A stretch of 40,363 nucleotides of DNA from Thermoplasmata archaeon. Its GTDB lineage: Archaea; Thermoplasmatota; Thermoplasmata; Thermoplasmatales; Thermoplasmataceae. Below the pieces are notes generated by a model. That model saw only the letters and a list, made by a program, of their open reading frames with translations, ran no database searches and was not told the origin of the DNA. Location: contig JAKATR010000065.1 of NCBI GenBank assembly GCA_021818675.1, positions 1 to 40,363 on the forward strand. Reading direction: 5' to 3'. Positions within the stretch are counted from its first letter, which is position 1. Every line of letters starts with the position of its first letter. A program made the position numbers and the translations under genes. Of this stretch, positions 1,537-19,547 are shown piece by piece.

Positions 1537-3285
1537 TCAAGCATCATAATAAATTCCATTTCCTGTGTAATTAAGTTCCCACAGTGTAATATTCCCAGGG
1601 TAACCGGAATAAATAATCTCGCAGCGTATACGATAGAGAGGATTATTTAAGTCGTTTAAAACCCATGTAAACGCATATTGTTTCTGGGAACTGGAAAGAA
1701 GAATAAATTCAGGCAAATTGGTCTTATTAAAAGGAAATATAGTAGAATGGCTGTAACTGGCGTTTGCTGAAGAGTATGCATTTCTGTCATTGGCAATATA
1801 TGGGAAAAGGTTATTGGATGTTATTATAGTAGAGTTATAGCCAATATCTTCCTGAATATATTTCATATATTTTGATTCCGGATTTATGCTATACTTAAAT
1901 TTGTATCCTCCTCCAAGAATTAAAACATGGTGATCATTTTGTGGATTTAATGGTGAAACCATGATATTCATAGAAACTATGGCCACTAATATTAATGAAT
2001 ATGACAGTCTACTGTGTTTCTTAACAAATTTTATCAGATTGATACGTTTCTTTTTAATCGCGATCAAATATATGAAAATCGATATAGTCATAGCGGATAG
2101 CACTGAAAAGATTATTGCTTCTGTTGAGAGGAATACAATATTAAAATCGTTAGCAGAAATAGCTATTATTAAACCAACTGGTATAAGGGGTAAAGCAAGT
2201 CTTTTGTTCAATCCTATGGAATTTTGAAGGCCCTTCTTAATCGATAGTAAACCAAATGGAAGTGTAGGGGCAAGAAGACTCATCGTAATAAATGAATACT
2301 GGCTTCCTAATGTGGCATAATGAGGGACGAATATTATTGTTTCCACTAACCAGATTAATACTATGTACCCGGTCTTCCGATAAAATAGCGGAATAAAGCA
2401 TAACATAGAAATGCTGAAGGCCCAATAACCCAAAGTTCCCGGGAGGTCGAATAACGCACTGCTGGAAGGCAACAAAGGTTGTCCCGTTTTTCTAATTAAT
2501 ATTGGGATGGCAGATTGATTATGCAAATAAACAGGAATAACGTTGTGTTCAATCAGTGTGATTATTGTATATACTAATATTGAGAGAATACCCAAGGCGA
2601 GGAATTTCCACTCTGCTTTCAATTTTGTAAGAATCTTCGAAAAGGACAAATTGATATCACTCATAAAGACAAATAAAATTAGACTGATTGAAATAAATGT
2701 GAACGCTTCCTCGGTAAGGTTACCTATAATTATGATTAATGATGATAACAAAAATTTTCTTTTAAGAATTAAGTATAAGAAGAGAAAGGAATAAAGAGGC
2801 ATAAAACTAAGCCAATGATAATCGTAAAGGACTGCAGTAATTAAAGATGCATTAAATCCATAAATTATGGACGCAAAGGTAGCTATTTTTCTATCTTTAG
2901 TTATTTCAACAGTAAGAAAATAAAGTACAGGAACTGATGAAAAAACTGCAAAAGACTGAATTGAGAAAATAGTTAAAGAGTAAGGGAAAAGAAAGTAGAG
3001 ATAGGATAAAGGATATGCAATAAATGACGAATGAACTTCAAGGTGGGAGAGAACACCATACGATTCATAGTCACCTGAATCATACAAAAGATATCCATGG
3101 GTATTAGTCCAAAGTTGCTGCATATTAATGCCAAGGTCCCAGTTTTCACTGTAAAAATTGAGGTAGCGTATATATGAAAAAATTATCATTATTATTATGA
3201 GTATTCCCGTAATCAAAAATATAAAAGTAGGCGATTCAAAAAACCGCATTTTGTCGGGTCTTGACCTTGATAATTTGTTTGGCAT
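1537..3285 (-). CDS. DUF2079 multi-spanning membrane protein
   Basis: A large integral membrane protein (about 582 aa) with roughly ten or more hydrophobic segments. Near its N-terminus it carries NWDLGINMQQLWTNTHG followed by LEVHSSFIAYPLSYLYFLFP, which match the DUF2079 pattern (DLG...Q..W...G, then a conserved His in a short helix). DUF2079 proteins resemble polytopic GT-C type glycosyltransferases, so a lipid-linked sugar transfer role is an inference only. The C-terminal ~120 residues look extracellular and contain several N-x-S/T sites. ATG 3285 is preferred over the upstream GTG because a TATA-like element on this strand lies at about 3307-3319, 25-30 nt upstream. It sits 144 nt upstream of the glycosyltransferase on the same strand. 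Confidence 0.8.
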   Translation of the reverse strand: MPNKLSRSRPDKMRFFESPTFIFLITGILIIIMIIFSYIRYLNFYSENWDLGINMQQLWTNTHGYLLYDSGDYESYGVLSHLEVHSSFIAYPLSYLYFLFPYSLTIFSIQSFAVFSSVPVLYFLTVEITKDRKIATFASIIYGFNASLITAVLYDYHWLSFMPLYSFLFLYLILKRKFLLSSLIIIIGNLTEEAFTFISISLILFVFMSDINLSFSKILTKLKAEWKFLALGILSILVYTIITLIEHNVIPVYLHNQSAIPILIRKTGQPLLPSSSALFDLPGTLGYWAFSISMLCFIPLFYRKTGYIVLIWLVETIIFVPHYATLGSQYSFITMSLLAPTLPFGLLSIKKGLQNSIGLNKRLALPLIPVGLIIAISANDFNIVFLSTEAIIFSVLSAMTISIFIYLIAIKKKRINLIKFVKKHSRLSYSLILVAIVSMNIMVSPLNPQNDHHVLILGGGYKFKYSINPESKYMKYIQEDIGYNSTIITSNNLFPYIANDRNAYSSANASYSHSTIFPFNKTNLPEFILLSSSQKQYAFTWVLNDLNNPLYRIRCEIIYSGYPGNITLWELNYTGNGIYYDA

Positions 3286-3365
3286 CTCAATCCAAGAAAT
3301 TGAAGGGGTTATTAAAACTATATTGTCAATGGTAACATTTAAAAACAATAGTGCTATCAAATAGC

Positions 3366-3683
3366 ATGGCCATTCCTAAAAAAAATTCCGATTATAATAA
3401 AATTATAGCCGAAAGAAGAAGGAATAGCTTGTGTGATATCCCACCTGTTCTTGTTCCGGTTTGGCAGTTAAAAATAAGGGAAAGATTTGGAATAAATGTG
3501 GATAAGGAGATTGCCCAATATATAGTACTGGCTGCGCATGAAAGAGGAACATGGAAGAAGCAGCGCGCTATTAAGAAAATTGAAAAACTATTCATGCAAA
3601 GAGGAATAGATGAAGATTCTTCGGCTAAAATGGCAAAAGATGTGATAAATCTTATTATTAGCAACAATACTGTTGAGCAGTGA
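3366..3683 (+). CDS. Basic 105-residue protein of unknown function, coupled to a METTL5-like methyltransferase
   Basis: I do not recognise the family. The protein is small, rich in Lys/Arg and mostly helical in appearance, with a proline-rich element IPPVLVPVWQL after a basic N-terminus and an amphipathic C-terminal half. ATG 3366 is chosen because a TATA-like box (about 3335-3346) is centred some 24 nt upstream, giving a leaderless mRNA; the frame could extend five codons to a GTG at 3351. Its stop codon overlaps the start of the methyltransferase gene by 4 nt (GTGA), so the two are almost certainly co-translated. That coupling suggests a role next to RNA modification or ribosome biogenesis, which is inference. 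Confidence 0.75.
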   Translation: MAIPKKNSDYNKIIAERRRNSLCDIPPVLVPVWQLKIRERFGINVDKEIAQYIVLAAHERGTWKKQRAIKKIEKLFMQRGIDEDSSAKMAKDVINLIISNNTVEQ

Positions 3684-4279
3684 GTTTCAAAAAGACACTT
3701 GAGTTAACCTTACAAAAATTAGCGGTAAACCAAACTTTAACAAATTATTTGGAGCAATATCAAACCGATGGGAAAACGGCCTCATACATCCTTAACATTG
3801 CTTTTCTCGATGGTAATATTGAAGGTAAATCAATCATAGATATGGGGACAGGTAATGGTATTTTTGCAATTGGAGCAAAACTTCTCGGGGCCCGTGAGGT
3901 AACAGCAATTGATATTGATCAAAGACAGATCGATATTTCCAAAGAAAATGCAAAAAATCTGGACTTGGATATCAATTTTCTCAATTGTAATGTTAATGAC
4001 GTGAATGGGCATTATGATACCTGCATAATGAACCCTCCATTCGGTTCGGTAAAAGCACATAGCGATATCCCCTTTATAGAAAAAGCCTGCAGCATTTCTG
4101 AAAAGGTTTACGCGATTCATAACTATAAAACAAAGGAATTTGTGTTAAAGCAATACAGCGAAAGAGGCATGTCAGAACTTACGTGGGAAAAAATTAAGAT
4201 CGGAATTAACCGTACATACTCACATCACACCAAAGATAGAGCCTTTATCGATTCCCTTTTTATTCGTGCCTATAAATAG
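3680..4279 (+). CDS. METTL5-like SAM-dependent RNA adenine methyltransferase (COG2263 type)
   Basis: A class I methyltransferase of 199 aa. Motif I is IIDMGTGNGIF (about residues 52-62), the acidic SAM-binding position is AIDID (76-80), and the catalytic NPPF motif (118-121) is continued as GSVKAHSDIPF. NPPF marks methylation of an exocyclic amino group, as in N6-methyladenine enzymes. The downstream KVYAIHNYKTKEFV matches the VYSLHK... region of METTL5 relatives, which methylate small-subunit rRNA in eukaryotes; an rRNA substrate here is inferred from the family. It starts at GTG 3680 inside the stop of the preceding gene, and it is followed by tRNA-His. Confidence 0.85.
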   Translation: MSFKKTLELTLQKLAVNQTLTNYLEQYQTDGKTASYILNIAFLDGNIEGKSIIDMGTGNGIFAIGAKLLGAREVTAIDIDQRQIDISKENAKNLDLDINFLNCNVNDVNGHYDTCIMNPPFGSVKAHSDIPFIEKACSISEKVYAIHNYKTKEFVLKQYSERGMSELTWEKIKIGINRTYSHHTKDRAFIDSLFIRAYK

Positions 4280-4364: not shown

Positions 4365-4437
4365 GGCCGGGTTGGGGTAGGGGTTATCCTTGGGGACTGT
4401 GGATCCCCGGACCCGGGTTCAATTCCCGGACCCGGCC
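4365..4437 (+). tRNA. tRNA-His (anticodon GTG)
   Basis: The sequence folds as a cloverleaf. The acceptor stem is GCCGGGT (4366-4372) with ACCCGGC (4430-4436), and the extra G at 4365 pairs with C73 at 4437, the hallmark of tRNA-His (G-1:C73). The anticodon stem is GGGGA/TCCCC with loop CTGTGGA, giving anticodon GTG at 4399-4401. The T arm is CCGGG-TTCAATT-CCCGG. No CCA is encoded, so it must be added after transcription. No intron is seen. Confidence 0.95.
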
Positions 4438-4452
4438 CTTAAATAATTTCAC

Positions 4453-18302: not shown

Positions 18303-18590
18303 TTGAAAATTCCTAAACAAGTTAAAATGTACTGCAAATTCTGTCATGAGCATACTGATCATGAAGTAGAAAGGGTAAGGAAGAGAAAGGCAAGCGAATT
18401 AAAGCATGGTCAGAGATTATTCAGAAGAGTAACATCAGGATATGGAGGTTTTCCAAGGCCGAAACCCGAGGGCAGAGAAAAACCCACAAAGAGAGTCAGT
18501 ATTAGATTCCGGTGCACTAAATGTAAAAGAGCATTAACCAGACCAACACAGAGGGCAAAGAAATTTGAGATATTAGAGGTGCATCAATGA
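18303..18590 (+). CDS. rpl44e: 50S ribosomal protein L44e
   Basis: A 95-residue large-subunit zinc protein. It starts MKIPKQVKMYCKFCHEHTDH (first Cys pair CKFC) and has a basic middle with RRVTSGYGGFPRPKPEGREKPTKR and the second pair CTKCK, followed by RALTRPTQRAKKFE. The start is TTG 18303, preceded by GGTGAT at 4-10 nt, and matches the family's opening exactly. It is the first gene of the operon L44e-S27e-aIF2alpha-Nop10-PAC2, an order common in archaea. Confidence 0.95.
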   Translation: MKIPKQVKMYCKFCHEHTDHEVERVRKRKASELKHGQRLFRRVTSGYGGFPRPKPEGREKPTKRVSIRFRCTKCKRALTRPTQRAKKFEILEVHQ

Positions 18591-18784
18591 GCGAAAAAAC
18601 AAGCGTAAAGCTTAAAGGAGTGGGCAATAAATTTATCCGTTTAAAATGCAAAGAATGCAACAATGAGCAGGTAACTTATAGCAAAGGATCCTCCAAGGTG
18701 ATCTGCAACATTTGCGGTTCTGAATTAGCATCTCCAACTGGAGGGCTAATAAGCATATCTGGAGAAAAAATTAAAGAGTATTAA
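18587..18784 (+). CDS. rps27e: 30S ribosomal protein S27e
   Basis: A 65-residue small-subunit zinc protein with the ribbon CKECNNEQVTYSKGSSKVIC..CG (CxxC...CxxC) followed by the conserved LASPTGG. Its ATG overlaps the L44e stop (ATGA), so it is translationally coupled. Confidence 0.95.
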   Translation: MSEKTSVKLKGVGNKFIRLKCKECNNEQVTYSKGSSKVICNICGSELASPTGGLISISGEKIKEY

Positions 18785-18785
18785 A

Positions 18786-19547
18786 ATGGCAAAAAACCTT
18801 CCTGAAACAGGGGATGTCGTAGTAGTTACGATCAGAAACGTAAAAAAATTCGGAGCTGATGTAACTTTAGACGAATTTCCGGGGACAGAAGGTTTTATTC
18901 ATATAGCAGAGGTCGCAACTGGTTGGGTTAAATATATCAAGGATTATTTGAGGGAAGGTCAAAAAACTGTTTGCAAAGTACTTTCAGTTGATCCAACCAG
19001 AGGGAATGTTGAATTATCTTTAAAGAGGGTTAATGATCACCAGAAGAGAGCAAAAATTTCTGAGTGGAAAGATGAACAGAAGGCTAAAAAACTCATGGAG
19101 CTTCTCGCAAAGCAATTGAAGAAATCATACGAAGAGTGTATGACTGAATTTGGCAACGAGCTTCAGTTAGAATATGGCTCAATTTATGCTGCTTTTGAAG
19201 ATGCAGCTTCTGGCGAAGATTTTATGCCTACTGTTAAAGCAAAGTGGAAAAATGCTTTTATCAAAATTTCAAAGGAGAACGTGACTCCACCCTTCGTTAA
19301 GATAGGGGGATATATAGAAGCCTATTCTCTTCAGCCAAATGGTGTGGATTTGATTAAGGACACATTCAAAGACATTGAAGAAGAAGAGGGTGTTTCAATA
19401 CAATATGCAGGAGCCCCAAGATATAGAATTGTTGTTCGAGAAAAGGAATACAAAATGGCCGAAGAGAAACTAAAGAAAATCGTTCATAATATTACGGAAA
19501 AAGGTAAAAAAGAAAGTGTAGTAGTAGAATTTTCAAGAAGTAATTAG
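18786..19547 (+). CDS. eif2a: Translation initiation factor aIF2 alpha subunit
   Basis: The alpha subunit of the aIF2 complex, which brings Met-tRNAi to the small ribosomal subunit. The 253-residue protein has an S1/OB domain first (residues 8-85: GDVVVVTIRNVKKFGADVTL, then GFIHIAEVATGWVKYIKDYL), a helical middle, and a C-terminal alpha-beta domain ending KKESVVVEFSRSN. Start ATG 18786 follows the S27e stop by one base. Gene position between S27e and Nop10 is the standard archaeal order. Confidence 0.95.
   Translation: MAKNLPETGDVVVVTIRNVKKFGADVTLDEFPGTEGFIHIAEVATGWVKYIKDYLREGQKTVCKVLSVDPTRGNVELSLKRVNDHQKRAKISEWKDEQKAKKLMELLAKQLKKSYEECMTEFGNELQLEYGSIYAAFEDAASGEDFMPTVKAKWKNAFIKISKENVTPPFVKIGGYIEAYSLQPNGVDLIKDTFKDIEEEEGVSIQYAGAPRYRIVVREKEYKMAEEKLKKIVHNITEKGKKESVVVEFSRSN

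Follow-up and report, generated by a model that had tools for sequence, protein, structure and literature searches.

What is the role of the small basic protein encoded directly in front of a METTL5-like methyltransferase gene in the window (the whole 40,363-nucleotide stretch of Thermoplasmata DNA analysed here), and does it serve the enzyme as TRMT112 does in human cells, or act on the rRNA itself? According to PMC8481954, METTL5 is one of four ribosome biogenesis factors that pass a filter of 90% presence among archaeal taxa, and it is among the most widespread factors of this kind in archaea and eukaryotes; its archaeal companions have been little studied. The small protein, here called S, is single-copy, order-wide and unannotated, and is tied to the methyltransferase, here called M, in an order of acid-loving archaea. 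The pair should make it possible to test whether METTL5 needs lineage-specific helpers, and how lineages in which Trm112 is not detected cope. Should S be a 30S protein, the small subunit of Thermoplasmatales would have a part that is uncatalogued within the literature searched.

Gene organization and promoter

The small basic gene directly 5' of the methyltransferase gene, with a 4-nt GTGA overlap, was the starting point of the original prediction, and the open reading frames and the sequence bear it out (Table 1). The ends of S and M are overlapping or close in most relatives and not just in the window. Because of the overlap, translation of M may be coupled to that of S by re-initiation at the GTGA.

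Table 1. Features in and around the S-M gene pair, in window positions.
Feature	Position	Strand	Description
DUF2079 membrane protein gene	1537-3360	-	Divergent, upstream of S
TATA-box-like element TTTAAAAA	3338..3345	+	28 to 21 nt 5' of the S ATG
S	3366..3683	+	105 aa, ATG start; basic, predicted all-helical, family-less and order-restricted; from the translation
GTGA overlap, 4 nt	3680..3683	+	S stop TGA / M start GTG; presumed translational coupling
M	3680..4279	+	199 aa, GTG start; METTL5-family SAM-dependent methyltransferase, predicted 16S rRNA m6A enzyme
tRNA-His gene	4366-4438		Downstream of M

An in-frame GTG at position 3351 offers an alternative start for S 5' of the ATG at 3366. A T-rich TATA box is common to 43 aligned S upstream regions at about -28 to -23 from the ATG (by column counts, T at -27 in 38 and at -28 in 32 of the 43), with an A-rich BRE-like run at -34 to -31. 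A distance of this size is typical for leaderless archaeal transcripts. Because of the conserved element ATG 3366 is preferred over GTG 3351 and is the probable start of S, and the conserved BRE/TATA spacing indicates that S is the first gene of a probably leaderless S-M transcript.

The methyltransferase

By phmmer, M matches Ta1320 (PDB 1ne2) with an E value of 9.2e-50 over residues 3-194, PH1948 (1wy7), a Thermococcales protein, with 7.2e-32, and human METTL5 of 9ohl and 6h2u with about 2.5e-19 (2.6e-19 for 6h2u, over residues 5-192); generic methyltransferase families gave lower scores than these structures. With such whole-length matches to solved METTL5 proteins the prediction of a METTL5-like enzyme holds, and M is, judged by sequence, a member of the METTL5 family and an orthologue of Ta1320, PH1948 and human METTL5. 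The window protein has both the SAM-binding glycine motif (DMGTGNG) and the catalytic NPPF motif (MNPPFG); residues G56, G58, G60, N118, P120 and G122 are invariant in 37 aligned rows while F121 varies. Family membership points to a decoding-region adenosine of the small-subunit rRNA as the probable target.

Distribution and linkage of the gene pair

Genomes were grouped under the labels f1, f2, f3, f5 and f11, which are families within the order or class of the genome collection, and those with a completeness of 90% or more and a contamination of 5% or less were taken as high-quality. S is present in 103 and M in 106 of the 117 genomes of the order, and both occur in all 51 of high quality. 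In 102 of the 103 genomes with S, which belong to f1, f2, f3 and f5, M comes directly downstream of it, sharing its contig and strand, 0-192 nt past the S alignment, and the adjacency recurs in all 45 loci sampled from the order. The only genome with S and without a visible M is G112, where the contig ends. Since M follows immediately 3' on the same strand in 102 of 103 cases the coupling is more than chance; the linkage is confirmed and is stronger than the window alone could reveal. The expected conservation of the pair across the order was thus found, and the small gene does not occur apart from the methyltransferase except at that contig end.

Four genomes of the order have M and no match to S. 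In G111 and G040 M is at a contig end, and in G040 a 24-aa S-like tail precedes it directly (E 0.74, suggestive only); in G022 and G024 other genes occupy the place of S. Outside the order the S profile matched at none of 20 sampled METTL5 loci. All 63 S matches in a class sample of 300 genomes fall within the order, as do 48 of the 49 matches at E <=0.01 in a phylum sample of 389 genomes. S is lineage-specific, as the original prediction considered, and nothing convincing turned up beyond the order. A match in G362 (E 0.003, 36 aa in a 241-aa frame) was rejected as a distant homologue, being at chance level in a search of 389 genomes, and viral spread was likewise discarded, as a pattern search of viral contigs gave 54 matches and no relative among them. 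The named relatives of S come from E-plasma and other Thermoplasmata. Genome G097 is taken to be Thermoplasma acidophilum, since its M agrees with the 1ne2 sequence, and it carries the same S-M pair; Ta1320 and PH1948 are the same enzyme as M, and the former also has S beside it. G101 is presumably T. volcanium.

The small basic protein

The S protein of the window has a pI of 9.8, with 20 K+R against 13 D+E, and is as basic as predicted; the median pI of 67 S proteins is 10.0. In an alignment of 33 rows, P26, W33, W63 and G80 are invariant and T62/K64/R67/A68 form a near-invariant cluster. S is a real gene, because dN is 0.008 against a dS of 0.67 in comparison with the nearest relative. In G096 (locus L059, 2978-3267) S is split over two frames (residues 6-60 and 61-101), by a frameshift or an assembly error.

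Searches of Pfam, NCBIfam, PHROG and PDB sequences with S or its profile gave no relative, and the profile found nothing below E 0.2 among the PDB sequences, ribosome structures in that copy included, although, as far as we are aware, none of these ribosomes is from Thermoplasmatales. AlphaFold2 predicts five helices for S alone in a weak model (pLDDT 69, pTM 0.49), and within a fused S-M chain the pLDDT blocks of S are higher, mostly 81-94. The best Foldseek hit of the S model has an E value of only 1.1. VIA gave a best Z of 6.9, to mitochondrial RNA polymerase, where helical-bundle likeness at Z <=6.9 means little, and the values for the Nab2 N-domain (6.1) and RBM25 (4.9) are below the meaningful level of the tool for helical models; a PWI entry is absent among the Pfam families listed for 33 members. 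The literature searched holds no description of S or of its counterpart next to Ta1320. A survey from 2007 (PMC1852104) counts 77 Thermoplasmata-specific proteins, and S may figure among them without a function.

The window was also compared with its closest relative, G070, where 37 of 40 non-overlapping frames have an orthologue. With 99.1% identity S ranks third of the 37, below eS27 (100%) and uL16/L10e (99.4%) and above aRF1 (99.0%), an LSM-domain protein (98.8%) and L44e (97.9%), and M ranks 24 with 87.9%; the dN of M against the nearest relative is 0.068. The genes for L44e, eS27 and aIF2-alpha, among the most conserved of the window, stand in a row at 18303-19547. Between T. acidophilum and T. 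volcanium the identity is 90.1% for S and 69.0% for M. S is more similar than M in all 903 pairs of f1 and all 36 of f5, but in just 17 of 36 pairs of f3 and 7 of 10 of f2, and between families the identity of S is similar to that of M or lower. By these figures S is under very strong constraint within families, as a component of a ribonucleoprotein or a hub would be, and yet it is unlike a universal ribosomal protein, because between families it has only 24-40% identity to the window protein, compared with 63-72% for L44e and 57-64% for uL16.

A proposed role in small-subunit maturation

The reading that we favour, and offer tentatively, is that S is a lineage-specific RNA- or 30S-binding factor in an S-METTL5 rRNA maturation module; a METTL5 cofactor ranks second, and an RNA role independent of METTL5 third. 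S and M would then form one module for maturation of the small-subunit rRNA. The S gene comes first in the pair, with a conserved archaeal promoter before its own ATG, and across the order METTL5 comes after it directly or with an overlap; the translation of METTL5 would be coupled to that of S by re-initiation. Being basic, helical and under strong purifying selection, S would bind RNA, most likely the 16S rRNA or a pre-30S particle, either to assist assembly in this lineage or as a subunit component, and METTL5 would then methylate a decoding-region adenosine of the same particle; direct contact between the two proteins is possible and would not be required.

In favour of an RNA- or 30S-binding factor are the near-constant adjacency, the joint presence in every high-quality genome, the conserved BRE/TATA element, the METTL5 likeness of M, the basic pI, the rank of S near ribosomal proteins, its higher identity than M in all pairs of f1 and f5, the invariant W33 and W63 with the T62/K64/R67/A68 cluster, and the Csl4 and Lsm genes of the neighbourhood. 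We count against it that no RNA-binding family or structure matched, that S diverges to 24-40% between families, that in f3 it is not slower than M, and that G022 and G024 have M without S. Lineage-specific archaeal ribosomal proteins are a general class, and S resembles them in being small, basic, conserved within families and lineage-restricted; it differs in that no ribosome in the PDB copy searched contains a relative of S, and in that it diverges faster than L44e and uL16 between families. A bolder form of the same idea, which we think improbable, is that S, having arisen with the order, is an unrecognised part of the small subunit or is obligatory for late 30S assembly, and that it brings METTL5 to the decoding region or licenses it there; in this lineage subunit assembly would then be coupled to m6A.

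Trm112 and a possible cofactor role

S could also be a dedicated heterodimer cofactor of METTL5, affecting stability, SAM binding or RNA binding, in a TRMT112-like role with an unrelated all-helical fold. We hold this to be rather unlikely, the less probable of the two leading readings. The near-exclusive linkage across the order and the close or overlapping gene ends would be expected of such a pair, and S may evolve slowly because it is a hub that serves several methyltransferases, as TRMT112 does (PMC8708615). A short Trm112-like gene (PF03966) is found in 23 of the 102 genomes with S and M, namely 7 of 68 in f1, 4 of 5 in f2 (one weak), 0 of 16 in f3 and 12 of 13 in f5. It is thus missing from 61 genomes of f1 and all 16 of f3, including the single-contig G097, G006 and G048; in complete genomes of this kind, G097 and G006 among them, S could therefore take the place of a partner. 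However, most genomes of f5 and f2 carry both S and Trm112, and for this reason S was ruled out as a simple replacement. M also occurs without S in G022, G024 and at all 20 outgroup loci, and in the larger families S is more conserved than M. The idea that S stands in for TRMT112 is therefore not sustained; the analogy is the weaker one, and a helper that binds rRNA, the other half of the original prediction, appears to fit better.

The zinc-binding features of Trm112 are missing from S, as predicted. Its zinc-knuckle signature, [C/D]PX[C/D]...CX2C (PMC5372719), does not fit S, where 63 of 67 proteins have no cysteine and four have one; S gave no useful Pfam score to PF03966, nor does this family figure in the Pfam listing of the 33 members. 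Archaeal Trm112 is likewise a small protein expected to aid translation-related methyltransferases, but it has this Cys/Asp signature and a fold of its own, and S shows neither. In the human METTL5-TRMT112 complex (18S rRNA m6A1832, PDB 6h2u) the enzyme belongs to the same family as M and a small protein is likewise linked to it; S differs in having no zinc knuckle, a predicted all-helical fold and a gene beside that of METTL5, in occurring together with Trm112 in two families, and in that its binding is hypothetical.

For the heterodimer, a fused S-M chain was modelled with AlphaFold2 from 14 loci read through the S stop, aligned together with further rows of S or M alone (60 rows in total). 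Both domains are well predicted, with M at a pLDDT near 97, but no interface emerged with confidence: the pTM is 0.68 for 310 residues, which by our own estimate, made with no positive control, is close to the value for two domains of such size placed independently. With pairing as shallow as 14 rows, the model weighs neither for nor against a heterodimer.

Thermococcales are reported to be without Trm112 (PMC5372719). As PH1948 comes from this group, METTL5 in archaea may in some cases be able to do without it. In f1 most PF03966 matches lie in frames about 313-335 aa long; the one in the genome of the window is TFIIB, and the rest are assumed to be alike. In one genus of f1 (g5; L190 in G061 and others) a longer Trm112-like protein of about 104-119 aa occurs, which may have been regained by transfer; most of f1 is without one. 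Family f11 of the class (e.g. G165, G192 and G235) has kept METTL5, and both S and a clear Trm112 are apparently absent, its PF03966 matches being at E about 1e-4 or weaker.

Genes around the METTL5 loci

A gene for a Csl4-like exosome protein follows METTL5 at all 20 loci sampled outside the order; four of these candidates were run against Pfam, and all four match ECR1_N. Inside the order Csl4 comes after M at the loci sampled from f2 and f5 and is near M in some of f1, and an Lsm gene is near S-M at 25 of 45 loci. As Csl4 follows at 20 of 20 outgroup loci without S, the METTL5-Csl4 arrangement looks ancestral in these samples, with S presumably inserted upstream in this order. With such neighbours, and with S more conserved than M, S could act elsewhere in RNA metabolism (in the exosome, with Sm-like/Lsm proteins, in transcription or as a general RNA binder) and only share the METTL5 transcript, but Csl4, Lsm, sucCD and argF (the last two named by eye from sequence) are variable where S-M is constant, and we consider this unlikely. 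Neutral hitch-hiking, with S an essential gene of unrelated function that stands in front of METTL5 by accident, is most improbable: in the outgroups and in G022 and G024 METTL5 does follow unrelated genes, but where the gene before it can vary so freely, one neighbour fixed in 102 genomes of four families is unlikely without selection.

A connection of S to unlinked rRNA genes was considered and rejected, because, in 24 genomes compared, the SSU and LSU genes lie far apart in the 12 from the order but also in most of the outgroup genomes without S, so that the arrangement explains nothing about S. In G178 (contig C1) two pieces of LSU rRNA, at 1770008-1770802 (+) and 817568-818509 (-), are nearly 1 Mb apart while the SSU gene is intact; either the 23S gene is fragmented or split, or the assembly is at fault.
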